From Burkholderia pyrrocinia (GTDB lineage Bacteria; Pseudomonadota; Gammaproteobacteria; Burkholderiales; Burkholderiaceae), in assembly GCF_018417535.1 (NCBI RefSeq), contig NZ_CP070979.1:620001-684000 (forward strand): a DNA stretch of 64,000 bases, given 5' to 3'. A program made the translations under genes and the position numbers. Positions within the stretch are counted from its first letter, which is position 1, and each line of letters starts with the position of its first letter. The notes beneath the pieces were generated by a model. The model searched no databases. It was not told the DNA's origin and worked only from the letters and a program-made list of their open reading frames with translations. Positions 10,925 to 30,515 of this stretch are shown here, piece by piece.

Positions 10925-10962
10925 TCCTTGTGCGACCGGGCCACGCCTGTAGCGAGACGTCG

Positions 10963-12417: not shown

Positions 12418-12503
12418 CGTGTAACCCCTTGAGGCTTGACTGACAAACTTGTTTTGAAATGAACTACGGAGGACCTGCAGTGCCCGGCCGGCCGCGCTCG
12501 CGA

Positions 12504-13232
12504 TCAATGCGAACGCAGATCCGACAGGAATTTTTTCGCGCGCGCGTGCTTCGGCGCAGTGAAGAACGCGTCGGGCTCGGCCGTCTCGAGAATCGTTCCC
12601 GCGTCCATGAACCAGATGCGGTCGGCCACTTCACGCGCAAACCCCATTTCGTGCGTCACGCACATCATCGTCATGCCTTCCTGCGCGAGACTCTTCATCA
12701 CGCTCAGCACCTCGCCGACCATCTCCGGATCGAGCGCGCTGGTCGGTTCGTCGAACAACATCGCCGGCGGGTTCATCGCGAGCGCCCGTGCAATCGCAAC
12801 GCGTTGCTGCTGCCCGCCCGACAACTGGGGCGGATAGGCGTTCGCCTTGTTCGACAATCCGACACGGGCGAGCAAATCCAGTGCCTTGCTCTGCGCCTCC
12901 GCGCGCTTCACGCCGCTGACGCGAATCGGCGCGAGCGTGATGTTCTCCAGCACCGACAGATGCGGGAAGAGATTGAATTGCTGGAACACGAACCCGATAC
13001 GGCTTCGATATGCGTTCACGCTCATCTTCCGGTCGTGGATGTCCTGTCCGTCGAACGAAATCTGGCCGCGATTGATTTCTTCCAGCCGGTTGACCGTGCG
13101 AATCAGCGTCGACTTCCCGGAACCCGACGGCCCGCAGACAACCACCACTTCGCCCTTGCGCACCTCGGCGTTGATGTCGACGAGCGCGTGATATTCGCCA
13201 TACCACTTGTTGACGTTGGAAAACTTGATCAT
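12504..13232 (-). CDS. ATPase of the polar amino-acid ABC importer
   Basis: 242 residues with Walker [10 protein letters not shown], signature LSGGQQQR, Walker [14 protein letters not shown] and the switch histidine in CVTHEMGF. The close similarity to GlnQ/HisP-type ATPases matches the binding protein and permeases around it. It powers import at the cytoplasmic face of the inner membrane. The ATG at 13232 was preferred over one nine codons upstream because an AAGGAA ribosome-binding site lies about 7 bases before it. It lies 27 bp downstream of the second permease. Confidence 0.93.
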
Positions 13233-13259
13233 CGGAGTTCCTTGAGAGAGTCGGGTCAC

Positions 13260-14009
13260 TCAGTTCCCGGTGGATACCGAGCCGGCCAGCGAAACCGCGT
13301 TCGCCGATTTCGCGCGGGCGTTCATGCCGGCGCGTTTGCGCGTCACACGGCGTTCCAGGTATTGCGCGAACTGCGTCAGCGCATAACAGAGCGCGAAGTA
13401 GCAGAGCGCGAGGATCAGATAGACCGGGAACGGCTTCGTCAGCAGCCGGTTGTTGATCTGGTCGGCCGCGAACGAGATCTCCTGGACGTTGATGATGTAG
13501 CCGAGCGACGTCTCCTTGATGGTCGACACGAACTGCGTCATCATGCTCGGCACCACGTTGTACAGGGTCTGCGGCAGCACCACGCACCGCATGGTCTTCA
13601 AGTAGCTCATGCCGAGTGCACGCGACGCTTCGACCTGCCCTTTCGGCAGCGCTTCGATACCGCCGCGAATGATCTCGCCGAGATACGCCGAGTCGTAGAC
13701 GACGAGCGCGCACAGCATCGTGACGAACCCCGTGACCGGATAGCCGGTGAGCACGGGCACGAGGAAGTACACCCAGAACACGACCATCAGCAGCGGCACG
13801 CCGCGAACCGCGTAGACGAGCGCGGTGGCCGGCGCGCGCAGCACCCGGAACGGGCTGATTCTCGCGAGCGCAACGAGTATCCCGAGCGGAAAGGCGATCG
13901 CGAGCGCGGCGACCGAAAGCAGGATCGTCAGCACGATGCCGCCGAGCGGCCCGTGCGGATACTGCCCGATCAGCAACAGCGCCCAGTTGTCTCGAATGAT
14001 CTCGAACAT
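13260..14009 (-). CDS. Permease 2 of the polar amino-acid ABC importer
   Basis: 249 residues, about five membrane helices, with the EAA coupling loop (EASRALGMSYLKTMRCVVLPQ) characteristic of the His/Glu/Gln/Arg/opine permease subfamily. It forms the membrane channel as a heterodimer with the permease encoded directly upstream; only two bases separate the stop of that gene from this ATG, so translation is probably coupled. A GGAG lies about 11 bases before the start. The C-terminal ~35 residues form a charged cytoplasmic tail slightly longer than usual. Confidence 0.92.
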   Translation of the reverse strand: MFEIIRDNWALLLIGQYPHGPLGGIVLTILLSVAALAIAFPLGILVALARISPFRVLRAPATALVYAVRGVPLLMVVFWVYFLVPVLTGYPVTGFVTMLCALVVYDSAYLGEIIRGGIEALPKGQVEASRALGMSYLKTMRCVVLPQTLYNVVPSMMTQFVSTIKETSLGYIINVQEISFAADQINNRLLTKPFPVYLILALCYFALCYALTQFAQYLERRVTRKRAGMNARAKSANAVSLAGSVSTGN

Positions 14010-14011
14010 GG

Positions 14012-14713
14012 TCACTTCACTCCCGGAATACGGTAGAAGGCTGCAAGCCGTGCGCCCAGGAGCATGATCAGCAGCGAGATGGCCAGATACATCACGGTTG
14101 CGACGAAATACGATTCGAACGACAGGAACGTGTCGTTCTCGATCTGCCGCGTCACGTAGGTGAGCTCCGCGGCGCCGATCGCCATCGCGAGGCTCGTGTT
14201 CTTGAAGAGCAGCACCGCATGATTGACCATCGGCGGGATTGCGTTTCGCAGCGCCTGCGGCAGGACGACATGACGCATCCCCTTCAGGAAGTTCAGGCCG
14301 AGCGCGCGGCAGGCTTCGTACTGGCCATACGGAACGGCGCGCAGCCCGCTGCGGATGTCTTCCGAGAAATAGGCGCCGCTGCACAGCCCGATCGCGACGA
14401 CCGCGAACACGAACTGGCCGTTGTATTCGTTGAGAAACGCCTGGATCCCGGCAGGCAGGATGTTCGAGATGCCGAAATACCAGAACAGGATCTGCACGAG
14501 CATCGGCACGTTGCGGTGATACGCGACGAACGCGGCGACGAAGCGCTCCGCGATCCGGATATTCGTCATGCGAATCAACGTGAGGGTCAGCCCTATCACG
14601 AGCGACAGCAGCCACGCCGAGACGGCCATCATCAGCGTCAGCTCGATGCCGTGCAGAAACAGTGCGCCGTAGTCGCCTCGCAGCACTGCAGAAAGGTCAA
14701 AATGCAGCTTCAT
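14012..14713 (-). CDS. Permease 1 of the polar amino-acid ABC importer
   Basis: 233 residues with about five membrane helices and the EAA loop (EACRALGLNFLKGMRHVVLPQ). It is the first gene of an operon that runs permease 1, permease 2, ATPase, binding protein, and possibly gntK. The promoter region 14714-15039 contains one of the four shared Nac-type promoters (14821-14885). It also has an inverted repeat with arms TTCAACGCGG (14782-14791) and CCGCGTTGAA (14808-14817) between promoter and start, which could form a leader hairpin. Confidence 0.92.
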   Translation of the reverse strand: MKLHFDLSAVLRGDYGALFLHGIELTLMMAVSAWLLSLVIGLTLTLIRMTNIRIAERFVAAFVAYHRNVPMLVQILFWYFGISNILPAGIQAFLNEYNGQFVFAVVAIGLCSGAYFSEDIRSGLRAVPYGQYEACRALGLNFLKGMRHVVLPQALRNAIPPMVNHAVLLFKNTSLAMAIGAAELTYVTRQIENDTFLSFESYFVATVMYLAISLLIMLLGARLAAFYRIPGVK

Positions 14714-14820: not shown

Positions 14821-14885
14821 ATACTAGCTCGCAAAAAAACCGGCTTGCAGACGCCTTTCGTCTGGTGCGATAAGTTTGGTCGATG
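14821..14885 (-). promoter_or_regulatory. Shared Nac-type promoter, copy 1 (ABC transporter operon)
   Basis: On the minus strand CTTATCGC (plus 14867-14874) stands 17 bp upstream of a -35 hexamer TGCAAG (14844-14849). A 17 bp spacer then leads to TAGTAT as -10 (14821-14826). The same spacings occur at 20483-20547 and 25595-25659. The outer half-site is degenerate here: CATCGA where the other copies have CATAAG. The -10 is 108 bp from the permease ATG. Confidence 0.65.
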
Positions 14886-15039
14886 ACCTGCCGGCACGGC
14901 CGCCCGAGCCCCGCCCGGCGGCGCTGCGCGCCGTGTTCCCGTCGATCGGAAAGCCGCCTGTGCCGCGACGCCGCGGGGTAAACACCCACGCGCCGAACGC
15001 AGCTACGCCACCATGCGGCGACCGGTACAACAACGGCCG

Positions 15040-16053
15040 CTATCGACCGATGCGCGGCGCATCGGTCAACACCTGAGGATTGACGGGTGTCGGCGGCCGG
15101 CCGGCATGCGGCCCCGCTCCCAGCGCCGCAATCAGGTTGTCGACGGCGAGCGACGCCATCGCTCGCCGTGTCGCCACCGATGCGCTGCCGATATGCGGCG
15201 TCAGCACCACGTTCCGTTGCGCGAGCAGTGCCGGGCAGACGACGGGCTCGCCCTCGAACACATCGAGTCCCGCCGCGGCGATCGCGCCTTCGGCGAGCGC
15301 GGCGGCCAGTGCGCTGTCGTCGACCACGCCACCCCGTGCGATGTTCGTCAGCGTTGCCGTCGATTTCATCTGCCTGAGTTCGTGCGCGCCGATCGCATGA
15401 TGGGAGGTCGACGAATACGGCACCACGACGATCAGGTGGTCGGATTCGCGCAGCAGCGCATCCTTGTCGACATGGCGCGCACGGCAACTCGCCTCCAGTT
15501 CCGGCGACAACCGCGAGCGGTTGTGATAGATCACCTTCATGCCGAAGCCCAGTGCGCCGCGACGCGCGATCGCCTGGCCGATGCGGCCCATGCCCAGTAT
15601 CCCGAGCGTCGCGCCATGAACGTCTGCGCCGACGAACATGTCGTAGCGTCCCGTTTTCGTCCACGCGCCGCGGCGCAGGTAGTGCTCGGATTCGGTGATG
15701 CGCCGCGCGGTCGCCATCATCAGCGCGAAACCGAAATCCGCGGTCGTTTCGGTCAGCACGTCCGGTGTGTTGGTCACGATCACGCCGCGCGCGGAGCACG
15801 CATCGACGTCGATGTTGTTGTAGCCGACGCCGATGTTGCAGACCGCCTCGAGCCCGGGGCAGGCATCGAGCAGGGTCGCGTCGATCCGGTCGCTGCCCGC
15901 GGTGACGGCGCCGCGTTTCCCCTGCAGCCGGGCGATCAGTTCCGGTTGCGACCAGATCGTGTCGTCCGGGTTGTCGGTCACGTCGAAAGGCTCCCGCAAA
16001 CGGTCGACGATGTCGGGAAACGACGCTCGGGTCACAAGAATCGACGCTCGCAT
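15040..16053 (-). CDS. D-2-hydroxyacid dehydrogenase (2-ketogluconate/hydroxypyruvate reductase type)
   Basis: 337 residues. The Rossmann loop LGILGMGRIGQAIARRG and the catalytic Arg (NIARGG), Glu (FEGEP) and His (TPHIGSA) of the D-isomer-specific 2-hydroxyacid dehydrogenases are all present. Members of this subgroup reduce glyoxylate, hydroxypyruvate or 2-keto-gluconate with NAD(P)H. The ATG at 16053 has a strong AAGGAG site. It follows the PEPC-like gene by 123 bp, a gap with a long-loop inverted repeat (arms GCCGCCCCG at 16116 and CGGGGCGGC at 16167) that may attenuate read-through. In context it could reduce a 2-oxo acid released by the RraA-type aldolase; gntK and idnD nearby also make ketogluconate plausible. 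Confidence 0.85.
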   Translation of the reverse strand: MRASILVTRASFPDIVDRLREPFDVTDNPDDTIWSQPELIARLQGKRGAVTAGSDRIDATLLDACPGLEAVCNIGVGYNNIDVDACSARGVIVTNTPDVLTETTADFGFALMMATARRITESEHYLRRGAWTKTGRYDMFVGADVHGATLGILGMGRIGQAIARRGALGFGMKVIYHNRSRLSPELEASCRARHVDKDALLRESDHLIVVVPYSSTSHHAIGAHELRQMKSTATLTNIARGGVVDDSALAAALAEGAIAAAGLDVFEGEPVVCPALLAQRNVVLTPHIGSASVATRRAMASLAVDNLIAALGAGPHAGRPPTPVNPQVLTDAPRIGR

Positions 16054-16176
16054 GACAGCACTCCTTGCTGGATTTCGGTAAGGGTTGAATGAGTCGGGCC
16101 GTGCCGGCGTCCGAGGCCGCCCCGGTGCGCATCGCATCGCGAACGCCGTCGCCCGCGCTGCGCGTGCGGGGCGGCG

Positions 16177-18969
16177 TCAGCCGAACGTGCCGACTTCGTG
16201 GGTCACGGCCACGGAGATTTCGCGTATCGATTCGAACCACTGCCGCATCGGCGCGAAAATCTCGCGGTGCTCTCTCGCATAGGAACCCGGCGCGCGCGGC
16301 GCGGCGGGCTCGGCGTACTCGTATTCGGCCGTATCGTCTGTCCGCTCGGGAAATATTCGCGCGAGTACCGGCAGCACGGACGGCATGTCGAGGCCGATGA
16401 TCGCGCGATGCAGATCGTCGGCCGTCACATCGGGACGCGGCGAAAATTCCGGAATTTCCGTCGCCTTCAACCAGACCAGCTGGATCAGCGCAAGCCGCAG
16501 CGCATGCAGCAGCATTTCGCGATCGCTCATGCGCGCGCGATTCGGCCATACGGCGCGCAGCGCCAGATCGTCGGCCAGCGCGCGGCGGAACATCGCCCGC
16601 GTCGCCGCGGACGCGCCGATCCGCTCCAGCATCGCGGCGACCGCGAGCATCGCGTCCCGCGCACCGCCATCCGCCGTGTGAAGCGCACGGTCGAGCCACG
16701 TGCCGGGATCGAGCAACGACGTCACGGCTCTCAGCACCTCGATGTCGGAGTGCGCGAACGCGGCTTCCGCGAGATCGAGCGCGCGCCTGAACCTGCGGCT
16801 GCGCCCGCGCATCTCCGCGAAGCCCTCCGGCTGCCGGGCGGCAGCGGCGCCCAGGCCGTGCACGGTGTTCGCGCACCAGCCGAGCTGCTGCAGGATCGCG
16901 TTGTTCGGGATCGCGCGCAGTTCGCTCGGGTGGCGAATCAGCGCGCGGAACGCGGCGCCGTCCGCTTGCCGCGCCGCGGGCCGCGAACCCGTGCGGTCGA
17001 GCAGCGCGGGACCGAACGTGCTCAGCATCGCCGTATAGCCGGCGTCGTCGACGAGCGCCGTCATCGTCGCGCGCACCGAACCGAAGAAATCGGCAGCGAA
17101 ATCCGGATCGTCGTAGATCGGATCGTCGACCGGGCCGACCGCATGATGGAACGCATGCTCGGCGATCCGCGCGACCGTCGCGAGCGCCAGCGCCGGCGTG
17201 CCGAACAGCAGATAGCCGTCGCCGCCCTGGAATGCGCTCTCCTCCCGTACCTGCAAGCCCCCATCGTTCAACGCATGGCGCGACGCCGTCGGCGACAGGT
17301 ATTTGAGGCGATCGGCCAGCGAGCCGGGATGCGCGCCGCGGCCGACGCTTTCGCCGTGCGTGTCGAACAGCACGACCTCGACGCCGTCCAGCCCGTGGCG
17401 CGCGAGCATGCCGGTTATCTTCATCCTCAGCCGCTCGATCAGGTAGCTCGCGGCAAGCTGACCGACATAGCGGCCCGAATCCGAATAGCCGAATTGCAGT
17501 GCCAGCCGTCCGTTCGATTTCACGTAGGCGCGATAATGCGGGCTGCGCAGCGCTTCATCGAGGACATGCGCGCCATGCTCGAGCGCCTCCTCGGTCTCGA
17601 ACAGCGGGCTGATTTCGACGTGCCGCTCCACGCCGAACAGCCGTGCGAGCCACAACGCGACCAGCAGCGTGTATCCGCTCTCCGTCTCCGCGATCAGGAA
17701 TCGAACCGGCGTCGCGCCGTCGATGTGCTTGACGAGCTGCGCGATCGTCATCATCGTCCGCGCGGCCGTCGCCTGCTCCGCGAGCAGCGCGCCGAAGTCG
17801 ACCGGCAGCGGCCGCACCTTGTCCAGCTCGGCGTTGATCGCCGCCAGCATCGCGCGCCGGTGCAGCGGCGCATCGACGGAATCGGCGATATTGAGCCTTT
17901 GACGCGCGGCGTTATGAAGCTGCGCGGCGTTCAGCCGGAAATGCGTATGCGCGAGCGCAAGCCCGTGCGACGCGAGGCCCGCGCGCGACACGGCCAGCGC
18001 CAGCTGGTCGGAATCGGGCGCATCGGCGATCGCGTCGCGATAAAGCTCGTCCAGGGTTTCCGGATCCACCAGCGCGTCGTCGCGGTGCGCGACGAGCGCC
18101 TGTGCGAACCGGGATGTCTGGCGCGCATCGGCACCGTCCGGGCATGCTGCGATCTGGTGGTCCAGCACGTCGAGTGCCTTCGCGACACGTTCGGTCAGCT
18201 GCCGCGCGCTGTCGACGGCGGACGCCTGCCGATGAATGCGCGCGAGCTGCAGCCGCTTGATCCGCAGGCGAAATCGCAGCGTATCCCACCAACCGATATC
18301 GGTTCGCCCGTCGGTGTCGTAGCCGACCCAGGTCGACACGATCAACGGCCGCGGCACCAGCGCCAGCCAACGGTCGGGAAATGCCCGGCGCGCCGCCGAC
18401 AGCAACGCGGCATTGAAGCGATCCAGCGCATCGCGGGCATGATCGATCGCCTGGACCGATTGCTCGAACTCCGCGTCGAGCGTGACCGTCCGCGGGCGAT
18501 GCGACTCGAATCGCCGCGGCGTCGCGCCGCACGCGCGATCCGCGAGATGGCGCGCGACCTCCGGATTCAGCGCGAAGGTCGGATGCCCGGTGAATACCGC
18601 CGCATAGCGGGTGCGCTCGGCACGCGCGCGAAAGCCGTCCCAGTCGCTCGCGTCGCCCACGACACGACCGGCAATCGATTCGAGCGCCGCTTCGTTCGCG
18701 TCGACACCGACGCCGCCGACATACGCGGCGATCCGCGCCGCCCGATCCGAGAACGCGTGATCGCGCAGCTGTCTCACCAGCTCGAGCGTGTCTTCGCCGC
18801 CGATTCGCCCGTCGCCGATCGACTGCATGATCGCGCATGCGAGCGACAGCACCGGATTGGCGAACGGGTCGCCCGCCGAGCGTTCGCGCGTCGCGGCGGT
18901 CAGGGCAAGAAGCCGGTTCGCCAGCGCCGTGATGGCAACGCCTTCGCATGCTTCGCCGCGAGGTTCCAT
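16177..18969 (-). CDS. Divergent phosphoenolpyruvate-carboxylase-like protein
   Basis: 930 residues, near the normal PEPC length. PEPC landmarks appear in order: TGHPTF (127-132, normally TAHPTE, His129 kept), WVGYDTDGR (about 214), LFETEEAL (about 456), GYSDSGR (494-500) and VGRGAHP (about 542). Several catalytic positions differ from recalled E. coli PEPC. The Lys of GYSDSxK is Arg, FHGRGG has become FDTHGE so the key His and Arg are lost (the Arg of GRGG remains), and the C-terminal Gln/Arg-Asn-Thr-Gly motif is absent. Carboxylation of PEP is therefore doubtful and another phospho-acid or carboxylate reaction is possible. It lies 3 bp after the RraA-like gene, so the two are translationally linked. 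Confidence 0.8.
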   Translation of the reverse strand: MEPRGEACEGVAITALANRLLALTAATRERSAGDPFANPVLSLACAIMQSIGDGRIGGEDTLELVRQLRDHAFSDRAARIAAYVGGVGVDANEAALESIAGRVVGDASDWDGFRARAERTRYAAVFTGHPTFALNPEVARHLADRACGATPRRFESHRPRTVTLDAEFEQSVQAIDHARDALDRFNAALLSAARRAFPDRWLALVPRPLIVSTWVGYDTDGRTDIGWWDTLRFRLRIKRLQLARIHRQASAVDSARQLTERVAKALDVLDHQIAACPDGADARQTSRFAQALVAHRDDALVDPETLDELYRDAIADAPDSDQLALAVSRAGLASHGLALAHTHFRLNAAQLHNAARQRLNIADSVDAPLHRRAMLAAINAELDKVRPLPVDFGALLAEQATAARTMMTIAQLVKHIDGATPVRFLIAETESGYTLLVALWLARLFGVERHVEISPLFETEEALEHGAHVLDEALRSPHYRAYVKSNGRLALQFGYSDSGRYVGQLAASYLIERLRMKITGMLARHGLDGVEVVLFDTHGESVGRGAHPGSLADRLKYLSPTASRHALNDGGLQVREESAFQGGDGYLLFGTPALALATVARIAEHAFHHAVGPVDDPIYDDPDFAADFFGSVRATMTALVDDAGYTAMLSTFGPALLDRTGSRPAARQADGAAFRALIRHPSELRAIPNNAILQQLGWCANTVHGLGAAAARQPEGFAEMRGRSRRFRRALDLAEAAFAHSDIEVLRAVTSLLDPGTWLDRALHTADGGARDAMLAVAAMLERIGASAATRAMFRRALADDLALRAVWPNRARMSDREMLLHALRLALIQLVWLKATEIPEFSPRPDVTADDLHRAIIGLDMPSVLPVLARIFPERTDDTAEYEYAEPAAPRAPGSYAREHREIFAPMRQWFESIREISVAVTHEVGTFG

Positions 18970-18972
18970 CGC

Positions 18973-19641
18973 TCAGCCAGCCATGTTCGCTTCGAACGCG
19001 TCGATCCACGAACGGTCGAAGCGGCCTTCCCTGATCGACTGGATCGTGTCGGCTTCCTTGCGCATTTGCGCGCGCGCCTTCTCGATCAGGTATTCGGCTT
19101 CGTCCTGCGGAAACGCGACGAGGCCGTCGTCGTCGCCGACGACGATATCGCCGGGATGGATCACCAGGCCATCGATCGACACGGGCACGTTGATCTCGCC
19201 GGGACCGGCCTTGTAGGGCCCCTTGTGCGTGACGCCTCGCGCGAACACCGGGAAATCCTTCTCGCGAATCGCCGCGACGTCGCGAATCGCGCCGTCGAGC
19301 ACGAGCCCGGCCACGCCGATGCTCTCCGCATACATCGACATGATTTCGCCGAGCAGTGCCTGGGTGATGTCGCCGCCGCCGTCGACGACCAGCACGTCGC
19401 CCGGCCGGCAATACTCGAAGGCGCGGTGAATCGCGAGATTGTCGCCGCGGCGCACGCGGACCGTGACCGCGGTGCCGACCATCCCGCCCGATCGGTGATA
19501 CGGGCGCAACGCGGCCGTGCCGACGATGCGCCGCATGTTGTCGCTGATCAGCGCGGCCGGAATGTCGCGCAGCGCGTCGATGATCGCAGGATCGGCCTGC
19601 GGTGCCGACGCGTTCTTTCGGGAACCGATACGTTGTTGCAT
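18973..19641 (-). CDS. RraA/HMG-aldolase family protein
   Basis: 222 residues with GDVLVVDGGG (phosphate/carboxylate loop) and the conserved LDGAIRDVAAI segment with the Arg-Asp pair of the class II aldolase/RraA family. Family enzymes cleave 4-hydroxy-4-methyl-2-oxoglutarate or 4-carboxy-4-hydroxy-2-oxoadipate to pyruvate and a 2-oxo acid and often decarboxylate oxaloacetate; the E. coli RNase E inhibitor RraA is a non-enzymatic relative. The catabolic neighbourhood favours an aldolase or decarboxylase. The ATG at 19641 has a GGAGAG site. It lies between the SDR (43 bp upstream) and the PEPC-like gene (3 bp downstream). Confidence 0.85.
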   Translation of the reverse strand: MQQRIGSRKNASAPQADPAIIDALRDIPAALISDNMRRIVGTAALRPYHRSGGMVGTAVTVRVRRGDNLAIHRAFEYCRPGDVLVVDGGGDITQALLGEIMSMYAESIGVAGLVLDGAIRDVAAIREKDFPVFARGVTHKGPYKAGPGEINVPVSIDGLVIHPGDIVVGDDDGLVAFPQDEAEYLIEKARAQMRKEADTIQSIREGRFDRSWIDAFEANMAG

Positions 19642-19684
19642 GATGTGCTCTCCGTGCTTGTGGACGTGACCGAATCGATCCGCT

Positions 19685-20428
19685 TCATGCGTCGCGCTTG
19701 ACCGTCGTGAGGCCGCCCGGCACCTGCAGGGTCGGGAGGATTTCCATGTTGCTGATGTTGACCGCGAGCGGCGCGGCGATCGCGAACGCGATCGCATCCG
19801 CGATGTCGGACGGCTGCGGCAGCTCGAAGCCTTCGATGAACTGCTTGCGCGCCGCTTCGATGTCGCCGCTCACGTGGCCGAAGATATCGGTCGCGACGCG
19901 TCCCGGGCAGATTTCCGTCACGCGCACGCGCCGGCCGGTCGCATCGACGCGAAGCTGTCGCGACAGCGCATGAATGGCCGCTTTCGTCGCGTGATAGATC
20001 GAGTTGCCGTTGAAGTTGTAGATCGCCGCGATCGAGCTGATGTTGACGATGTGCCCGCGGTCGCGCTCGACCATGCCCGGCATCGTGAGCCGCACGATAT
20101 GCAGCACCGACTGCAGGTTGACTTCCACCTGCACGTCGATGTCGTCGACGTCGGCGTCGAGAATCGACCCCTTGCGCGATACCCCCGCGTTGTTCACGAC
20201 GATGTCGAATTCGACGTCCTGCGTCAGCTTCGTGACCGCGTCCAGGTCACAGACGTCGATCGCATGCGGAATGCACCCCGTGCGTTTCGCGAGCGCGTCG
20301 AGCCGGTCCGCGCTGCGCGCCAGTGCATGGACCTCGAGCCCTTCGCGGCAGAAGCGCTCGACGATCGCGGCGCCCATCCCCGTCGAAGCGCCCGTGACGA
20401 GTGCGGTTTTGTAATCGGAAAACGGCAT
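19685..20428 (-). CDS. Short-chain dehydrogenase/reductase
   Basis: 247 residues with the classical SDR motifs TGASTGMG (cofactor loop), NNAG, a catalytic Ser in NISSIAA, and YHATK (Tyr and Lys). It resembles the YdfG/3-hydroxy-acid dehydrogenase branch, which oxidises 3-hydroxy acids such as serine, L-allo-threonine or 3-hydroxyisobutyrate with NADP. It is the first gene of the operon SDR, RraA-like, PEPC-like, D-2-hydroxyacid dehydrogenase. Its -10 lies only 55 bp upstream in the shared Nac-type promoter at 20483-20547. The physiological substrate is unknown. Confidence 0.88.
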   Translation of the reverse strand: MPFSDYKTALVTGASTGMGAAIVERFCREGLEVHALARSADRLDALAKRTGCIPHAIDVCDLDAVTKLTQDVEFDIVVNNAGVSRKGSILDADVDDIDVQVEVNLQSVLHIVRLTMPGMVERDRGHIVNISSIAAIYNFNGNSIYHATKAAIHALSRQLRVDATGRRVRVTEICPGRVATDIFGHVSGDIEAARKQFIEGFELPQPSDIADAIAFAIAAPLAVNISNMEILPTLQVPGGLTTVKRDA

Positions 20429-20482
20429 GGTTCACCTCTGTGGAATCGCGTTGCATCGGTATGCCGATCAACGCTGCTAACA

Positions 20483-20547
20483 ATGTATTCGGCGCCGCAT
20501 TCGCGCGCCAAGACGGATTCGATGTGGTGCGATAAGGCGGACTTATG
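20483..20547 (-). promoter_or_regulatory. Shared Nac-type promoter, copy 2 (SDR operon)
   Basis: On the minus strand: CATAAG (plus 20542-20547), five bases, CTTATCGC (20529-20536), 17 bp, TTGGCG as -35 (20506-20511), 17 bp, ATACAT as -10 (20483-20488). CATAAG and CTTAT form an ATA-N9-TAT dyad. The outer half overlaps the stop codon of pxpA, so the operator of this operon is embedded in the 3' end of the preceding gene. Confidence 0.75.
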
Positions 20548-21325
20548 ACGGCGACGGGCGATCGACGAGCTTCGATACCGGCACGACGCGCCCGCCCGTC
20601 GCTTCGATCGCACCGCGCACGGTGCGCGCGAGTTCCACCGCGCCCGGCGTGTCGCCATGAAGCAGGATCGACCTCGCATTCATCCTGAGGGTGTTGCCCG
20701 CGATCGTGGTGACCGTGCCGTCCTCGAGCAGTTGCTGCACGCGCGCGAGCACCGCCGCCCGGTCCTTGATCACCGCGCCCGCGAGCTTGCGGGACACGAG
20801 CGCGCCCTGATCGTCGTAGGCGCGGTCGGCGAGGAAGGTATTCGCCGTGCGCACGCCGATCCGGTCGGCCGCGCGCTCGATCTCGGTGTTGGTCGACACG
20901 CTGATCACGAGATTCCGGTCGAACTCCGCAACCGCCCGCACCAGCGGCTCCGCGAGTTCATACGACGCGGCGGCCATGTTGCCGAGCGCGCCGTGAAAGC
21001 TCATGTGGGTCAGGCGGTGGCCCGCCGCGCGCGCGATCCCTTCGAGTGCGCCCATCTGGTACAGCACGTACTTCGCGAGTTCGAGCGGGTCCGCCTGGAT
21101 CGGCCGCCGCCCGAACCCGAGCAGGTCGGGAAAGCCGACGTGCGCGCCCAGGTCGATTCCCTTCGCGCCTGCAAGGCGCACGGTCCGGTCCATGATCACC
21201 GGGTCGCCCGCGTGATAGCCGCACGCGATATTGATCGACGAGACGATATCGAACATCGCTTCGTCGTCGCCCATCCGATACGGGCCGAATCCTTCGCCGA
21301 CATCCGCGTTCAGGTCAATTTCCAT
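20543..21325 (-). CDS. pxpA: LamB/YcsF family 5-oxoprolinase subunit A-like
   Basis: 260 residues starting MEIDLNADVGEGFGP, the family hallmark. SSINIACGYHAGDP, LGAHVGFPD and FHGALGNMA supply the conserved acidic/His pocket. PxpA with PxpB and PxpC hydrolyses 5-oxoproline using ATP in many bacteria. Here pxpA is the last gene of a carboxylase-type operon and overlaps the preceding gene by 11 bp. The start at 21325 is chosen over the adjacent ATG at 21328 by family alignment. With accB and accC in the same operon, the substrate may be another cyclic amide. Confidence 0.92.
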   Translation of the reverse strand: MEIDLNADVGEGFGPYRMGDDEAMFDIVSSINIACGYHAGDPVIMDRTVRLAGAKGIDLGAHVGFPDLLGFGRRPIQADPLELAKYVLYQMGALEGIARAAGHRLTHMSFHGALGNMAAASYELAEPLVRAVAEFDRNLVISVSTNTEIERAADRIGVRTANTFLADRAYDDQGALVSRKLAGAVIKDRAAVLARVQQLLEDGTVTTIAGNTLRMNARSILLHGDTPGAVELARTVRGAIEATGGRVVPVSKLVDRPSPS

Positions 21326-21785
21326 CATCTGCTCTCTCGATGCGTGGGAGGTGTGGCGGCGGCATGTCGGCCGCCAGTTCGAACAGCGGCGCCCCATACC
21401 CGACGAGGCCCCCCGGTTCCGCATGAATCGCCGAGATCACGCCGCCGCGCTCCGCGACGACCGGCCGGTACAACTCGGCGATCTGCAGCAGACCGACGAC
21501 GTTCCCGGCTTCGACACGTTGGCCGATCGCGGCCTGCGGCGCCGTGCGGTCGGGATGCGTGGTCACGAAGATTCCGGTCGACGGCGACCTGACGATCGAC
21601 GTCGGGCCGGCGGCCGGCGACGGCGTCCCGATCGCGCCCGCATCACCCGTCGGCGCCGCGGGTTCGAGCGTCAGGCGGACCGTCGATCCCGCAAGCCGGA
21701 TCTCCGCGAACTCGATCTCGGCGGCGGCAAGCCACGACGAGATCTGGCGAAGGTCTTGAATGTCCACTTCGTTGTTGTTTGTCAT
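21315..21785 (-). CDS. Biotin-carrier-like protein lacking the biotinyl lysine
   Basis: 156 residues laid out like AccB: a short helical N-terminus (DIQDLRQISSWLAAAEI), an Ala/Pro-rich linker (43-63) and a C-terminal biotinyl-lipoyl-like domain (about 64-138). Aligned with AccB, the EAMKM turn is replaced by QIAEL, putting Glu104 at the position of the biotinylated lysine, while the flanking glycines and the GVISAI strand are kept. It therefore cannot carry biotin in the standard way. It overlaps pxpA by 11 bp and begins 3 bases after pxpC, so it belongs to the operon. A structural or decoy-carrier role is possible. Confidence 0.75.
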   Translation of the reverse strand: MTNNNEVDIQDLRQISSWLAAAEIEFAEIRLAGSTVRLTLEPAAPTGDAGAIGTPSPAAGPTSIVRSPSTGIFVTTHPDRTAPQAAIGQRVEAGNVVGLLQIAELYRPVVAERGGVISAIHAEPGGLVGYGAPLFELAADMPPPHLPRIERADDGN

Positions 21786-21788
21786 GGG

Positions 21789-22793
21789 TCAGTATTTCGA
21801 CGCACGGAACAGCCCGGCGAGATTGCGGACCTTGGCGAGATAGCGCTCCACCTCGTCCAGCGCGGCAACCGCTTCTTCGTAGGTGGTCCTGGCAAAGCGG
21901 ATCCGCGTGCCGATCCGGGCTTGCGCGAGCCGCCACAAATCGGCTTCGATCACCGTGCCGATCTTCGGATAGCCGCCCGACGGCTGCGCGTCGCGCAGCT
22001 GGATGATCGGCTGGCCGCTGTGCGGCACCTGGATGACGCCCGGCACGATGCCGTGCGAGCGTTTCTCGATCGGCCGGCGGGCCGCGAGCGTCGGGCCGGC
22101 GAGCCGGTATCCGTATCGATCGCTCTGCGGCGTCACTTTCCAGCCTTCGCGCCAGAACGCGTCGAGCGAATCGGCTTCGTAGCACTCGTACTCGGCGGCC
22201 GGCAGCACCCTCACCACCGTGTCGCCGCCTTCGGCGGCCGGCGTGGCTGCGGGCGTCGGCAACAGGTACGCCGGCGGCACCGTGCCGAACCCGCCGTTCG
22301 CGGCGGACTGCAGCGGTGCACGCGCATCGAGCCCGATCGCGTGGAGCACGTCGCCTTTCTGCAACTGCCGTCCGTTGAATCCGCCGAACTCCCCGCGCAA
22401 CTGCGTGCTCCGCGACCCGAGCACGCGGGGCACGTCGACGCCGCCCGCAAGCGACAGGTAGCAGCGCGTTCCCGACGCAGGGATGCCGATCGTCAGCACT
22501 TCGCCCCGCCTCGCCTCGATCGTCCACCACGGCAGAATCGGCCGCTCGTCGAGCCGGGCCGCGCAATCGGCGCCCGTAATCGCAAACGCCAGATCCTCGA
22601 GGAAGCGGACGCGAAACGGAAACATCGGGATTTCGATCGCGGCCGCGTCGTCGGGATTGCCGAGCAGCAGGTTGCCGATCGCGAGCGCGACCCGGTCCAT
22701 CGCACCGGACGTGCCGACGCCGAATCGCAGGTAGCCCTCGCGCCCGCGGTCCTGCACCGTTGCCAACGCGGATGAAGACAAGATCTCGATCAT
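21789..22793 (-). CDS. pxpC: Biotin-dependent carboxyltransferase-like subunit (PxpC/KipA, AHS2)
   Basis: 334 residues beginning [20 protein letters not shown], with GVGTSGAMD, the ALAIGNLLLGN helix and HSGQPIIQLRDAQPSGGYPK near the C-terminus, all typical of the AHS2 domain. The same fold forms half of the carboxyltransferase of urea carboxylase. The ATG overlaps the pxpB stop as ATGA, so the two are translationally coupled and probably form one heterodimer. In the Pxp complex it takes part in ATP-dependent ring opening of 5-oxoproline; beside accB and accC a true carboxyl transfer is conceivable. Confidence 0.9.
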   Translation of the reverse strand: MIEILSSSALATVQDRGREGYLRFGVGTSGAMDRVALAIGNLLLGNPDDAAAIEIPMFPFRVRFLEDLAFAITGADCAARLDERPILPWWTIEARRGEVLTIGIPASGTRCYLSLAGGVDVPRVLGSRSTQLRGEFGGFNGRQLQKGDVLHAIGLDARAPLQSAANGGFGTVPPAYLLPTPAATPAAEGGDTVVRVLPAAEYECYEADSLDAFWREGWKVTPQSDRYGYRLAGPTLAARRPIEKRSHGIVPGVIQVPHSGQPIIQLRDAQPSGGYPKIGTVIEADLWRLAQARIGTRIRFARTTYEEAVAALDEVERYLAKVRNLAGLFRASKY

Positions 22794-23548
22794 CGGACAA
22801 TCCTTTCGGCACGGAAACGAATCATGTCGCCGGGCGCGAGCGTGGCCGGCTGCTCGCGCGCGGGGTCGAAGAACGTCATCGCCGTGCGGCCGATCGTGTT
22901 CCACCCGCTGGGGCCGGCGGACGCCGATACGCCCGTCTGCACGCCGCCGATCGAGACGGCGCCGCCCGGCAGCCCGAGTACGGGCACCTTGCGCCGCGGC
23001 GTGGCGATCCGCGGATCCATGCCGCCGAGATAGCAGTAGCCCGGATGGCTGCCGAGCGCGTAGACGGTGTAAAGCGGCGCGCAATGGATCTCGACGACCT
23101 CGTCGACCGACAGGCCCGTATGCGCGACCACGTCCTCGAGATGCGGTCCGAACTCCCCGCCGTACTGCACCGCGAGCTCGACCACGTTGCCCGCGATGTC
23201 GAGTTCGCCGGCCGCATGCCATGCGTCGACCAGTTGCGCTTCCAGCGCGGCAGGGTCCGTCGGCGGATGCGTGAAGGTCAGCATCAGGTTGGTCACGCCG
23301 GGCACGGCCTCGCGCACGCCGGGCCACGCGCCGACCGTGCGCGCGAGCGTCCAGATGCGACGCTGCACCCGCAGGTCGAGCGCGCCCGGCGCCTCGAACA
23401 GCATCGCGGTGGTGCCGAGCAGACTGACGCGCAGCGTTTGTTCCGAATCGTCCTGTTTCATTGCGAGAGCTTTTCCTTCCGGCTCGGCACACGCGACTGC
23501 CGAATCGTCATGCAGGCCGGGCGGCGCAGGCTCGATGATTCGGGTCAT
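22790..23548 (-). CDS. pxpB: Carboxyltransferase-like subunit (PxpB/KipI, AHS1)
   Basis: 252 residues containing the AHS1 core: GVTNLMLTF near residue 95, [12 protein letters not shown], a Pro-Gly-Tyr-Cys-Tyr-Leu-Gly segment, and [16 protein letters not shown] near 210. It is the partner of PxpC. The ATG at 23548 overlaps the accC stop as ATGA; a second ATG at 23461 would give a protein nearer the usual 220 residues, and the first ~30 residues are not conserved. Tight overlap with accC upstream and pxpC downstream ties the biotin carboxylase to the AHS1/AHS2 pair. Confidence 0.88.
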
Positions 23549-24897
23549 ACGGCCTCCCGCGCGGCGAGCCAGCGTTCCAGATGATGAATATCCACGCCGC
23601 CGTCGCCGAACGCCGGATCGTCCAGGATCGCGCGATGAAGCGGCACATTGGTCCGTATCCCTTCGATGCGCATCTCCGACAGCGCGACGCGCATCCGCGC
23701 AATCGCCTCGTCGCGGGTCGCGCCGTGCGTCACGACCTTCGCGATCAGCGAGTCGTAGTACGGCGGCACGACATGACCGGCGCTCAGGTGCGAATCCACG
23801 CGAATGCCGTTCCCGCCGGGCACTTCCCATTCGACGATCCGACCCGGACACGGGACGAAGGTGAACGGATCTTCCGCGTTGATCCGGCATTCGAGCGCGT
23901 GTCCGGCCGAGCGAAGGTCGGCTTGCGTCCACGTCAGCGCATGGCCTTGCGCGATGCGGATCTGCTCGCGCACGATGTCGATTCCGGTAATCGCCTCCGT
24001 CACCGGATGCTCGACTTGAAGCCGCGTGTTCATTTCGATGAAATAGAACCGGCCGTTCTCGAACAGGAACTCGAACGTCCCTGCGCCGCGATATCCGATC
24101 TGCCGGCACGCGTCCGCGCAACGTTCGCCCACCTCGCGAATCAGTCCCGGATCGATGTGAGGCGTGGGCGCCTCCTCGAGTACTTTCTGATGGCGCCGCT
24201 GCAGCGAACAGTCGCGCGACCCGAGCCACAGCGCCGTGCCATGCTGGTCGCAGAGCACCTGGATTTCCACGTGGCGCGGATGCTCGAGGAATTTCTCGAC
24301 ATAGAGCTCGGGCCTGCCGAACGCCCGCCGCGCTTCTTCGCGCGTCACGGCCACCGCATCGAGCAACTGGGCCGCGGCGTGCACGACACGCATGCCGCGA
24401 CCGCCGCCGCCGCCCGACGCCTTCACGATCACGGGATAGCCGATCTCGGCCGCGATGTTCAGGATCTCGTCGGGATCGTCGGGCAGACTGCCGTCCGGGC
24501 CCGGCACGCAAGGCACGCCGGCCGCGCGCATCGCGCGTTTGGCCGTCACCTTGTCCCCCATGGTGCGAATCGATTCGGCCGTCGGCCCGATGAACGCCAG
24601 CCCGGCCGCCTCGACCTGTGCCGCGAAAGCCGCGTTTTCGGACAGGAAGCCGTAACCGGGGTGGATCGCCCCCGCGCCACTCACGCGAGCGGCGAGCAGG
24701 ATTGCCTCCTGGTTCAGATAGCTGCGATCCGGCGCCGCCGGCCCGATACAGAGGGCCTGGTCCGCCAGACGAACGTAGCGCGCGCCGGCATCCGCCTCCG
24801 AATGAACGGCAACCGTCCGCAAGCCCAGCTCGCGGCACGCGCGCTGAATCCGCAGCGCGATTTCGCCTCGATTCGCAATCAGCACCTTATCGAACAT
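23545..24897 (-). CDS. accC: Biotin carboxylase subunit
   Basis: 450 residues, full length for AccC. It starts [17 protein letters not shown] and has the ATP-grasp glycine-rich loop [24 protein letters not shown], the catalytic [12 protein letters not shown] and [14 protein letters not shown]. It carboxylates biotin on its carrier using ATP and bicarbonate. It lies 69 bp after accB and overlaps pxpB by 4 bp, unlike the housekeeping accBC pair. A dedicated biotin carboxylase for the PxpB/PxpC-type transferase is the simplest reading; the catalytic residues all look intact. Confidence 0.93.
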
Positions 24898-24966
24898 GGT
24901 CGCCCCGCTCGTCGGTTCCGATGGCGCCGCGGCCGTTCGCCGCCCGGCTGTCAGGAAGGAAGCGCA

Positions 24967-25431
24967 TCATCGTTCGATCCGGAACAGCGGCTGACCGGCT
25001 TCGACCTCGTCGCCGGAATTCACGAGCACCTCGGCTACCCGGCCCTCGTATTCCGATTCGATCGCGTGAAACACCTTCATCGCCTCGATCGTGCAAAGCA
25101 CCTGGCCGGCCTGCACGCGATCGTCGTTGTTGACGAAGTCCGGATCGTTCGGCGACGGCCGAAGATGCGCGACGCCGAACATCGGCGCGCGCACGATGCA
25201 CGGCTCGGCCCGCTGCATGTCGGGCGACGCGACCGGCAGCGGCGCCGCCTCCTGCTCGATGCGCGATTGCGGCCCGCGCACGGAAGCCGCGTCGCGCGCC
25301 GGCGCGGCGGCGGCATCGCCCCGGTTCCGCTTGACCAGCCTGACCTTGTCGTCGCCCTCGATCAATTCGAGTTCCAGGAGCGGCGAGTCCGCCAGCAGGT
25401 CGATCAGAGACTTAATCTTCTTGAGATCCAT
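24967..25431 (-). CDS. accB: Biotin carboxyl carrier protein
   Basis: 154 residues: N-terminal MDLKKIKSLIDLLADS helix, an Ala/Pro linker (about 40-75) and a biotinyl domain with CTIEAMKVFHAIES, where Lys119 is the biotinylation site. It shuttles carboxylated biotin between AccC and a carboxyltransferase. It is the first gene of the operon accB, accC, pxpB, pxpC, carrier-like protein, pxpA. Its -10 (25595) lies about 164 bp upstream, leaving a long untranslated leader in which I see no defined riboswitch. The start at 25431 matches AccB proteins; an upstream in-frame ATG adds ten unconserved residues. Confidence 0.92.
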   Translation of the reverse strand: MDLKKIKSLIDLLADSPLLELELIEGDDKVRLVKRNRGDAAAAPARDAASVRGPQSRIEQEAAPLPVASPDMQRAEPCIVRAPMFGVAHLRPSPNDPDFVNNDDRVQAGQVLCTIEAMKVFHAIESEYEGRVAEVLVNSGDEVEAGQPLFRIER

Positions 25432-25594
25432 CGTTTGGCCCGTAGCCCGGTTGGCGAGCAACGGCGAACGGAGATTCGCCGCTGCGTACGTTGCGCGACG
25501 ACGATCGCTGCGGCAGCTTCACCGGCTGCGCAGACCGCGTCGCGGCACGCCCCGTCGCCCCGCGCGCGGCGCCGGGCAACTGACGATGGATTCA

Positions 25595-25659
25595 ATGTAT
25601 CGGGCGCAGAAAAATTACGCCAAGACGGATTCGCTTTGTAGCGATAAGGCGAGCTTATG
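25595..25659 (-). promoter_or_regulatory. Shared Nac-type promoter, copy 3 (accB operon)
   Basis: On the minus strand: CATAAG (plus 25654-25659), CTTATCGC (25641-25648), 17 bp, TTGGCG as -35 (25618-25623), 17 bp, ATACAT as -10 (25595-25600). Identity with copy 2 runs through CGAATCCGTCTTGGCG and again at the -10. The ATA-N9-TAT dyad overlaps the stop codon of the LysR gene. Confidence 0.75.
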
Positions 25660-26590
25660 TATCCGCGGTATCCGCGTTCGGTTCCGAACGCGTGTCGAAA
25701 GCGAGATCGCCCGCGAGCTCGAGCAGGATGTCCTTGACTGCCGCGGCCGGCTCGGACAGCGGAAGATGGTCGGACAGGCAGACCGACAACGGGATCTTGA
25801 TCACCGGCGACACGATGCGGCACTGGACGACGTCGCCGGCCGCCGCCACGACGCGCGCGGTGGAATCCGGCAGGATCGTCGCGCCGATCCCGGCCCCGAC
25901 GGCCGCGGACAGCGTCGTGGCCGACTCGATCTCGGCGATCACGTTCGGAATCATCTGCATCCGCGCGAAGGCCTCGTCGACGTATTTGCGCAGATAGTTG
26001 TACGGGCGCGGCAGCAACAGCGGAACATCGCGCAGCGCGGTCACGTCGATTTCGCCTGCCGCGATGCCCATGCTGCGCGGCGCGACGAGGAACAGTTCCT
26101 CGTTCATCAGCAACTGGAACGACAGGCCGTGCACGGGCTTGTCGCCGTACAGCACCGCCATGTCCATGCGGCCGTTCATGATCAGCTCGCTCAGCGTCGT
26201 GCCGAAATTTTCGTTGATGTACAGCAGGATCGACGGATGGCGCGCGCGGACCGCGCGCAACAGCGGCAGCGACAACGCGGAGGCGCCGGTGCCGGGCGCG
26301 AGCCCGACCGAGACCTGGCCGGCCAGCGTCTGTCCCGCGCTCTTCACGTCGGCCTGCGCCTGCTCGAACTGGCGCAGGATGAGCTGCGCATGGCGGTAGA
26401 GCGTCGCGCCGGCCTCCGTCGGCGTCACGCCGCGCTTCGTGCGGACGAGAAGCTGCTGCTGGAATTCGTCTTCCAGCGTGATCAGCTGCTGGCTGAGTGC
26501 CGGCTGGGCGATGTGCAGCACCTCCGCCGCCTGCGTCAGGCTGCCGATGTCGACACTCTTCACGAAATACTTCAGGCGCCGCAGGTTCAC
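25655..26590 (-). CDS. LysR-type regulator, Nac-like
   Basis: 311 residues from a GTG start at 26590, where the family sequence begins (NLRRLKYFVKSVDIGS). An upstream ATG at 26722 would add 44 unrelated residues. The winged helix (TQAAEVLHIAQPALSQQL, RTKRGVTPTEAG) is very close to enterobacterial Nac as I recall it, followed by a type-2 periplasmic-binding-like effector domain (about 90-300). Nac recognises ATA-N9-TAT, and that dyad occurs intact in two of the four shared promoters here and partly in the other two. The gene is divergent from the aminotransferase and directly upstream of the accB operon. It is the likely regulator of the block; the inducer is unknown. Confidence 0.88.
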   Translation of the reverse strand: MNLRRLKYFVKSVDIGSLTQAAEVLHIAQPALSQQLITLEDEFQQQLLVRTKRGVTPTEAGATLYRHAQLILRQFEQAQADVKSAGQTLAGQVSVGLAPGTGASALSLPLLRAVRARHPSILLYINENFGTTLSELIMNGRMDMAVLYGDKPVHGLSFQLLMNEELFLVAPRSMGIAAGEIDVTALRDVPLLLPRPYNYLRKYVDEAFARMQMIPNVIAEIESATTLSAAVGAGIGATILPDSTARVVAAAGDVVQCRIVSPVIKIPLSVCLSDHLPLSEPAAAVKDILLELAGDLAFDTRSEPNADTADT

Positions 26591-26719
26591 GGTAATCGGG
26601 TCTTCAATGCATGGGTCGGCTAATGGTAGGACGAAGCCATCGGCCCGGAAAGTGGACAAAAACCCTACCGACCGCGGGCGGCGACACGAATCGCACCCGG
26701 GCATCGTCGGACGATTCGT

Positions 26720-26785
26720 CATAAGCGGATGCTCTCGCCCCAGCGGAAAGACATCTTGGCGCGCGCGTTTTCGCCCGCTTACTGT
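26720..26785 (+). promoter_or_regulatory. Shared Nac-type promoter, copy 4 (aminotransferase operon)
   Basis: On the plus strand CATAAG (26720-26725) starts exactly 36 bp before TTGGCG (26756-26761), as in copies 2 and 3. CTCTCGC stands where they have CTTATCGC, and TCTTGGCG is identical. TACTGT (26780-26785) is a -10 at 18 bp spacing, about 33 bp before the GTG start of the aminotransferase. The inner half-site is degenerate, so regulation may be weaker. Confidence 0.6.
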
Positions 26786-26818: not shown

Positions 26819-28027
26819 GTGAGTGCATCGCGCATCGCCGCCCGTGTTCAGCGCATCAAACCCTCGCCGAGCAGCGCGGCGGCCGACCGGGCCGCCGAAT
26901 TGCGGCGCCAAGGCAAGGCCATCGTCAATCTCGTCGTCGGCGAACCCGACTTCGACACGCCCGCGCCTATCCGCCAGGCCGCCGTCGACGCGATGGAACG
27001 CGGCGAAACCCGCTACACGCCGACCGCCGGCACCCCCGCGCTGCGCGCCGCGATCGCCGCGAAACTCGAACGCGAAAACGGCCTCACCTACGATCCGAAG
27101 CAGATCATCGTGACCTGCGGCGCGAAACACGCGATCTTCAACGCGCTCGCGATCACGGTCGAAGCCGGCGACGAAGTGCTGATCCCCGCGCCTTACTGGG
27201 TGTCCTATCCCGACATGACGCTCGCGTGCGACGGCGTGCCCGTCGTCGTGCCGTGCACCGAAGCGCACGGCTTCAAGCTCACCGCGGCGGCGCTCGACGC
27301 CGCGATCACGCCGCGCACCAAGTGGCTGATCATCAATTCGCCGACCAATCCGACCGGCGCGGCGTATTCGGCAGACGAACTGCGCGCGCTCGCCGACGTG
27401 CTGCTGCGTCACCCCCACGTCCTCGTGATGATGGACGACATCTACGAGCACATTCGCTACACCGACGGCCGCACACCGCATCTGCTGACGGTCGAGCCGG
27501 CCCTCGCGTCGCGCACGCTGGTCGTCAACGGCGTGTCGAAGACCTACGCGATGACGGGCTGGCGCATCGGCTATGCGGCGGGCCCGGCCGACCTGATCGC
27601 CGCGATGGACACGCTGCAGTCGCAATCGACCAGCAATGCGTGCTCGATCAGCCAGGCCGCCGCGCTTGCGGCGCTCACCGGCGACCAGACCTTCGTCGCG
27701 CAATCGGTGGGTGTCTATCAGGATCGCCGCGATCATGCGCTCGCCGCGCTCAATGCGATTCCCGGCATCAGTTGCGGCGCGCCCGACGGCGCGTTCTACC
27801 TGTACGTCAATTGCGGCGGGCTGCTCGGCAAGACCACGCCGCTCGGCAAGCGGCTCGATACCGATTCGGACGTCGTTCTGTATCTGCTCGAGCATGCGGG
27901 CGTGGCAGTGGTCGCGGGAACGTCGTACGGCCTCTCGCCTTATTTCCGGATGTCGATCGCCACCAGCGTGGACACCATCGGCGAGGGCTGCCGAAAGATC
28001 GCCGAAGCGGTCGCCGCACTGAACTGA
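26819..28027 (+). CDS. Class I aminotransferase (aspartate/aromatic type, subgroup Ib)
   Basis: 402 residues. VVGEPDFDTP near the start, SPTNPTG (174-180), MMDDIYEHI (Asp for the pyridine nitrogen) and the PLP lysine Lys241 in NGVSKTYAMTGWR mark a fold-type I aminotransferase related to thermophilic-type AspAT. It exchanges an amino group between an amino acid and 2-oxoglutarate or oxaloacetate. The start is GTG at 26819 with CAGGAG 7 bases upstream. As first gene behind the fourth shared promoter, it is a candidate for converting the imported or ring-opened amino acid to its 2-oxo acid. Confidence 0.92.
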   Translation: MSASRIAARVQRIKPSPSSAAADRAAELRRQGKAIVNLVVGEPDFDTPAPIRQAAVDAMERGETRYTPTAGTPALRAAIAAKLERENGLTYDPKQIIVTCGAKHAIFNALAITVEAGDEVLIPAPYWVSYPDMTLACDGVPVVVPCTEAHGFKLTAAALDAAITPRTKWLIINSPTNPTGAAYSADELRALADVLLRHPHVLVMMDDIYEHIRYTDGRTPHLLTVEPALASRTLVVNGVSKTYAMTGWRIGYAAGPADLIAAMDTLQSQSTSNACSISQAAALAALTGDQTFVAQSVGVYQDRRDHALAALNAIPGISCGAPDGAFYLYVNCGGLLGKTTPLGKRLDTDSDVVLYLLEHAGVAVVAGTSYGLSPYFRMSIATSVDTIGEGCRKIAEAVAALN

Positions 28028-28144
28028 GGGATCGGCCGGACTCGCCGCTGCGCTTTCCGTCCGCATGACATAAAGGCATGCCGCGCCTCCGGACGCGGCA
28101 GCCGGAGCCGATATCGCTTTACTTTCACTGACAAGGGGATGCAG

Positions 28145-29254: not shown

Positions 29255-29362
29255 CGATCGCGTCGAACCGGGCCGGCCCCATGCGGATCGGCTCCGTCCG
29301 TTCGCCCGACGCGTCGCGTCACGCGTGGGCGAGCGGCACGCGCCATTCAGGAGGTAGAACAC

Positions 29363-30505: not shown

Positions 30506-30515
30506 AGGCCGCACG

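Follow-up and report, generated by a model that had tools for sequence, protein, structure and literature searches.

A Nac-family LysR gene and five operator-promoters predicted to form a local regulon for an amide or lactam pathway in Burkholderia pyrrocinia

Introduction

What does a protein that databases label 'nitrogen assimilation transcriptional regulator NAC' regulate in Burkholderia? The question is raised by a 64,000-nucleotide stretch of the Burkholderia pyrrocinia genome (RefSeq assembly GCF_018417535.1, contig NZ_CP070979.1, positions 620,001 to 684,000; hereafter the window, with positions counted from its first letter), in which a LysR-type gene of this family lies among promoters that share one layout. 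Nac plays a global role with many targets across the genome, needs no small-molecule inducer and recognizes sites of the form ATA-N9-TAT; its own gene has a sigma-54 promoter activated by NtrC. A first-pass annotation of the window had described four such promoters and grouped the genes behind them into one regulon. No paper on this cluster, regulon or regulator was among the matches listed in literature searches. Here we report that five stretches of the window (Table 1) are very probably the operator-promoters of one local regulon, to which the Nac-family LysR protein (25655-26590) would bind as a tetramer to activate five transcription units. What is new is a fifth site, exclusivity of the element at genome scale, its conservation in two bacterial classes, an operator made of two parts, and a Nac label whose meaning is corrected from global to local.

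A Two-Part Element Recurs at Five Promoters

The four stretches first described read as annotated: in copies 1 to 4 the -35 hexamer is preceded by CATAAG, whose first base lies 36 bp ahead of it, and by CTTATCGC, which ends 17 bp ahead of it, with deviations in copy 1 (CATCGA and TGCAAG) and copy 4 (CTCTCGC), and the -10 hexamers across these copies are ATACAT, TAGTAT and TACTGT. Copies 2 and 3 do overlap the 3′ ends of pxpA and the regulator gene, as the TAA inside CATAAG is the stop codon of pxpA (20543) in the one and of the LysR gene (25655) in the other. All four sites are real, but a fifth had been overlooked; this copy 5 lies 106 bp upstream of an L-idonate 5-dehydrogenase-like gene and three bases past the PntB stop codon, and the idonate-dehydrogenase-like gene is also preceded by a site in relatives. 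Likewise, the short boxes are genuine, but the conserved unit seen in the alignment and the class consensuses is an element of about 45 bp, consisting of ATAAG-N5-CTTAT, then AnA-N9-TCTT over the -35, then the -10 at a nearly fixed distance. The center of ATAAG-N5-CTTAT lies about 63 bp before the predicted start, and that of AnA-N9-TCTT 21 bp further downstream. Grouped by the gene that follows, the -10 spacing is 18 bp in 63/63 biotin carboxyl carrier protein (BCCP), 72/73 short-chain dehydrogenase (SDR), 13/14 RraA, 15/15 IdnD (idonate dehydrogenase) and 4/4 porin sites, 17 bp in seven of nine importer sites, and 17-19 bp in 59 aminotransferase (AAT) sites, each value shifting by up to one base depending on the hexamer read.

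This is the layout expected when a LysR tetramer occupies four half-sites and its activation site covers the -35 hexamer. A comparable arrangement is described in PMC12016517 for BhbR1, a LysR activator of 3-bromo-4-hydroxybenzoate genes in Pigmentiphaga, for which an ATA-N9-TAT recognition site near -65 and an activation site over the -35 were footprinted; the palindrome of the window's copies has this ATA-N9-TAT, T-N11-A form near -65. Measured from predicted starts, copies 2 and 3 match the arrangement in full, and copies 1, 4 and 5 keep the palindromic T-N11-A near -65 and the second site near -35 in part. Substrate and genes differ from those of BhbR1, and here five copies would coordinate five transcription units.

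The Element Is Confined to the Cluster in the Genome

The first-pass annotation had proposed a scan of the genome (8.54 Mb; 8,538,927 bases in 3 contigs) as a check on its motif. A composite pattern allowing up to three mismatches matched only copies 2 and 3, with no match for the reversed pattern, and exact matches to the palindrome were likewise confined to these two copies. The palindrome alone (CATAAG-N5-CTTATCGC, two mismatches) was rejected as a specific marker, having 8 matches in the genome against 44 for its reversed pattern. A profile of the whole 48-bp element was also scanned over the genome. It was built from 58 sites of other species (58 of the 63 non-redundant ones), with the window genome excluded and one Burkholderia relative (L021) included, and looser Nac sites would escape it. 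Searched up to an E-value of 10, it returned six matches, of which the best five were copies 2, 3, 4, 5 and 1, all within 18 kb, and no further site rose above chance. The sixth match (C1:2303165, L104) was rejected, since its 13.5 bits (E 0.6) are at chance level, and the mean of the two class matrices gives no score above 3 there.

A matrix trained on gammaproteobacterial sites only also ranked the five copies first in the window (47.9, 40.4, 21.1, 19.8 and 7.6; next -2.3). When the matrix columns were permuted 200 times, the top score in the window averaged 0.3 (standard deviation 4.0, maximum 14.0), and copies 2, 3, 4 and 5 lie above every one of these controls.

The Element Is Conserved in Two Bacterial Classes and Accompanies the LysR Gene

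With the window's LysR protein as query, the best 80 of 123 loci were fetched, from Paraburkholderia, Trinickia, Caballeronia, Burkholderia, Herbaspirillum, Collimonas, Variovorax, Pseudomonas, Serratia, Rouxiella, Brenneria, Erwinia, Pantoea and others. The cluster is kept around the LysR gene in most of them, with enterobacterial loci mostly without the biotin carboxylase and carrier genes. Matrices were trained in betaproteobacteria or gammaproteobacteria and tested on the other class at a threshold of 20, the counts covering 29 betaproteobacterial loci (including L044, a Variovorax) and 50 gammaproteobacterial loci, with L077 left out. The gammaproteobacterial matrix found 97 sites in the 29 betaproteobacterial loci, 96 of them before a cluster gene (BCCP 29, SDR 22, AAT 20, RraA 13, IdnD 7, porin 4, phosphoenolpyruvate carboxylase (PEPC)-like 1, none 1). 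The betaproteobacterial matrix found 130 sites in the 50 gammaproteobacterial loci, 118 before a cluster gene (SDR 47, AAT 35, BCCP 34, PxpA 2, unassigned 12). One dinucleotide-block shuffle per locus gave no site, in a version of the count with L044 among the gammaproteobacteria and 98 and 133 sites. All 79 loci have at least one site and 57 have three or more, and 73 of the 80 have a site between -60 and 250 bp of the LysR gene's 3′ end. Sites of this kind accordingly stand also beside the regulator's relatives in Pseudomonas and Pantoea.

The RraA-like genes that stand beside the idonate-dehydrogenase gene carry their own site (14 sites), and this pairing of an RraA-like gene with its own operator copy recurs in many Paraburkholderia loci (L016:5069, L018:5021, L020:4593 and similar, all on the plus strand). 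Caballeronia sordidicola has a second gene set (L107, 2752-11510), where two LysR genes stand in tandem; the second LysR is 71% identical to the window's, and sites precede the aminotransferase, hydroxyacid dehydrogenase and idonate-dehydrogenase genes.

Co-occurrence of site and regulator was surveyed in an even sample of 150 genomes of the family that includes the window's own (LysR at E ≤ 1e-90; site at E ≤ 0.01 with stricter filters). The LysR gene was found in 10 genomes and the site in 11: every genome with the LysR gene has sites (two to five each), as does 1 of the 140 without it (Fisher p 9.4e-15, which is not a strict probability as the genomes are related). The site is thus present almost only together with the LysR gene. 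All 37 sites of the ten genomes lie within 8 kb of that gene, the window's copy 1, at 11 kb, being below the survey threshold. In the 14 genomes of named loci, which are also sources of training sites and one of which is survey genome G114 by its coordinates, 44 matches at E ≤ 0.01 fall on a single contig per genome.

The Regulator and Its Relation to Nac

That the regulator is Nac-like, as the first-pass annotation held, was confirmed by its match to the NCBIfam NAC family (Table 1). The protein, with an N-terminal HTH_1 and a C-terminal LysR_substrate domain, is the only one in the genome over the family cut-off (455 bits; next 242). It shares 51% identity with E. coli Nac across 301 residues, and of its N-terminal 64 residues 53 to 55 are shared with the two enteric Nac proteins compared (55/64 with Klebsiella Nac). 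With Nac of Klebsiella and E. coli the system has in common the protein family and, in copies 2 and 3, the ATA-N9-TAT form. In contrast to Nac, only five sites were found here, clustered in one region; the regulator gene is counted among its own targets; AnA-N9-TCTT belongs to the element as a second conserved half; and no sigma-54 or NtrC elements stand before the window's LysR gene. The gene also adjoins, and diverges from, a predicted target, with copy 4 before the aminotransferase gene.

Outside Burkholderia, Paraburkholderia, Trinickia and Caballeronia, 52 of 55 rows have a sigma-54 element (up to two mismatches) upstream of the LysR gene, 37 of them at a distance of 45-70 bp and 15 at other positions within 300 bp. 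Such an element is absent from all 24 rows of these four genera, the window included, and occurs in 4.4% of random stretches. NtrC-like sites with up to one mismatch occur in 21 of the 55 outside rows, 0 of the 24 group rows and 0.6% of random stretches, and allowing two mismatches likewise gave none in the 24. For comparison, the region upstream of E. coli nac has a one-mismatch match to each of the two elements. The window's group instead shares a TATCAT-like -10 before the LysR gene (15 group rows, by eye), of which the window has a variant. Judged by these promoters, the regulator gene looks nitrogen-controlled, like nac, in most relatives outside the window's group, but not in the window. 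Since the genome scan turned up no other site above chance and the window lacks the promoter elements of nitrogen control, the name 'Nac' should not be taken to mean a global nitrogen regulon here.

In trees of 46 rows, enteric Nac falls inside the local regulators of Enterobacterales (joint group 98/98) and is sister to the Serratia-Rouxiella rows (92/83). Holding all local regulators together was weakly rejected in this set (approximately unbiased (AU) test, p 0.033) but not in a different sampling of 64 rows with one outgroup (AU p 0.371), so the origin of global Nac from a local regulator stays a suggestion. We consider possible, if slightly short of probable, a history in which cluster-bound local activators under NtrC/sigma-54 control, as in Pseudomonas and Enterobacterales, were the stock of the global enterobacterial Nac, which left the cluster, and in which cluster and operators persisted in the Burkholderia line while nitrogen control of the regulator gene was lost.

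Proposed Mechanism and Alternative Explanations

The sites, their conservation, their confinement to the cluster and their occurrence almost only with the LysR gene are observed; binding by the window's LysR protein, tetramer geometry, activation, substrate and inducer are inferred. One LysR dimer would sit on ATAAG-N5-CTTAT near -63 and the other on AnA-N9-TCTT, overlapping the -35 two helical turns downstream, and the bound tetramer would activate a weak sigma-70 promoter with its -10 at nearly fixed spacing. Five units would be switched together: the importer; the SDR, RraA-like, PEPC-like and hydroxyacid dehydrogenase genes; the biotin-dependent carboxylase and PxpA genes; the aminotransferase, porin and transhydrogenase genes; and the idonate-dehydrogenase-like gene. 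These would probably import and degrade an amino-acid-like cyclic amide (e.g., a 5-oxoproline analogue) that doubles as the inducer.

Several observations count against a single five-promoter regulon. Copy 1 reaches only E 0.067 in the genome scan, is alone in not exceeding the permuted-matrix controls, some of which score higher than its 7.6, and is 11 kb away from the LysR gene; parts of the palindrome are missing in copies 4 and 5. Among the relatives, the 80th locus (L077) has no site and 7 of the 80 have none in the interval around the LysR 3′ end, and one survey genome (G025) has a lone site without a LysR gene. Moreover, the consensus of copies 2 and 3, matched fuzzily, served for the initial choice of training sites, so the matrices in that sense depend on these two copies, and at least five of the ten survey genomes with the LysR gene (G013, G078, G100, G114 and G118, by coordinates) supplied training-site loci, which ties the hits there to the profile; the remaining five are the window's own genome, G015, G036, G087 and G097. 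To these is added the PxpBC fusion, which at 309 bits stays under the 500-bit cut-off of the PxpC equivalog model (NF045499). Two of these points can be qualified. Copy 1 is the weakest of the five and has no upstream half-site, but this importer-class form is also present in nine relatives' sites before the importer, all nine without the upstream half-site, so its weakness is shared and not an accident of the window; copy 1 is thereby supported. The G025 site is followed by a 93-codon, TTG-started frame resembling an SDR fragment and may be a relic.

Three other explanations must be set against this evidence. The LysR protein could be a true global Nac answering nitrogen limitation, with the five sites only its strongest, as might be argued from a family score far over the cut-off, the identity with E. 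coli Nac, the sigma-54-like elements (52/55) and NtrC-like sites (21/55) before the gene outside the window's group, and a 48-bp profile that would let looser sites pass unseen; we nevertheless think this unlikely, given a genome scan without further sites above chance and the lack of both promoter elements in all 24 rows of the window's group. Distinctly unlikely is a repressor that the substrate would release from the five promoters: although a protein bound to the element's downstream half, which overlaps the -35, could block RNA polymerase, the palindrome center near -63 is the place given for LysR activators in the general description in PMC4834489, and the -35 hexamers deviate from consensus. 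Finally, the element might be read by a different regulator, or owe its conservation to duplicated promoters that are related by descent and have no single regulator. Binding by the LysR protein is a prediction, and one genome has a site without the gene, but the survey's ten of ten against 1 of 140, together with the same element standing before genes that are not homologous, in two bacterial classes, leaves this highly improbable. Activation of a local regulon by the Nac-family LysR protein is consequently the reading we prefer. The regulon first proposed is strongly supported by exclusivity, LysR co-occurrence, two-class conservation and sites before target-type genes at other places as well, with the binding itself predicted.

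Genes of the Predicted Regulon and Likely Function

Gene content was assigned from NCBIfam and Pfam (Table 1). Biotin carboxylase and its carrier, encoded together with PxpBC and PxpA, suggest that an amide or lactam is carboxylated or opened at the expense of ATP. That the substrate resembles an amino acid is suggested by the genes for the importer, the aminotransferase, the RraA-like protein and the hydroxyacid dehydrogenase. As in the PxpABC 5-oxoprolinase, PxpA and a PxpBC-type protein are encoded, but here PxpBC is fused, falls under the PxpC equivalog cut-off and is accompanied by biotin carboxylase and carrier protein. Because that cut-off is missed, 5-oxoproline itself is not claimed as the substrate. 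A biotin carboxylase and carrier beside PxpBC recall urea carboxylase.

The PEPC-like protein has 930 residues, of which only 259-549 match the PEPC model, and 6 of the 80 loci have a relative of it. The frame of a second biotinyl/lipoyl-like protein separates PxpBC from PxpA, and a similar open frame is likewise placed in the four relatives compared (L011, L033, L037 and L061). Behind the importer, at about 10631-10930 on the minus strand, an SDR-like match has reached through only the first third of the SDR profile when its frame stops, and looks like an SDR remnant.

Table 1. Operator-promoter copies and genes of the predicted regulon (window positions; copy scores from the 58-site profile).
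Feature	Position	Strand	Description	Score or remark
Copy 1	14821..14885	-	Importer operator-promoter; upstream half-site degenerate (CATCGA); CTTAT, CCAGA and TCT kept; -10 TAGTAT	16.5 bits, E 0.067
Copy 2	20483..20547	-	Operator-promoter of SDR, RraA, PEPC-like and hydroxyacid dehydrogenase genes; overlaps pxpA stop codon	39.6 bits
Copy 3	25595..25659	-	Operator-promoter of BCCP, biotin carboxylase, PxpBC and PxpA genes; overlaps LysR stop codon	38.0 bits
Copy 4	26720..26785	+	Operator-promoter of aminotransferase, porin, PntA and PntB genes; divergent from LysR gene	29.0 bits
Copy 5	32276..32341	+	Operator-promoter of L-idonate 5-dehydrogenase-like gene; CATTCG-N5-CCTCT, CCAGA, TCTT; -10 TATCGT	21.9 bits, E 0.0013
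LysR-type regulator	25655..26590	-	NCBIfam NAC family; GTG start at 26590 assumed	NF008410 454.9 bits, cut-off 309
Importer genes	11569..14713	-	Polar amino-acid type ATP-binding cassette importer: two permeases, ATPase, family 3 binding protein	
Hydroxyacid dehydrogenase	15040..16137	-	D-2-hydroxyacid dehydrogenase (glyoxylate reductase-like)	
PEPC-like	16177..18969	-	PEP-carboxylase-like protein	Only central part matching
RraA-like	18973..19797	-	RraA-like aldolase/decarboxylase family protein	
SDR	19685..20428	-	Short-chain dehydrogenase	
PxpA	20543..21424	-	LamB/YcsF	NF003814 333.2 bits, cut-off 226
Second biotinyl/lipoyl-like	21315..21785	-	156 aa, without biotin lysine motif	Domain call by eye
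PxpBC	21789..23492	-	PxpB-PxpC-like fusion (urea amidolyase-related domain)	TIGR00724 324 bits, cut-off 230.2
Biotin carboxylase	23545..24897	-		
BCCP	24967..25461	-	Biotin carboxyl carrier protein	EAMK motif
Aminotransferase	26819..28027	+	Aspartate-transaminase-like	NF004769 702.5 bits, cut-off 617
Porin, PntA, PntB	28139..32272	+	Porin and transhydrogenase genes	
Idonate dehydrogenase-like	32381..33415	+	L-idonate 5-dehydrogenase-like alcohol dehydrogenase	NF007375 371 bits, under cut-off 469

Conclusion

The evidence says that a Nac-labelled protein in the Burkholderia group would control no more than five promoters, a private regulon serving an uncharacterized biotin-dependent amide or lactam pathway. 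The operator model is ready for finding genes of this pathway in other genomes, and the regulon offers a route to the substrate through its predicted role as inducer. The cluster also provides a test case of how a local LysR activator may have turned into a global nitrogen regulator.

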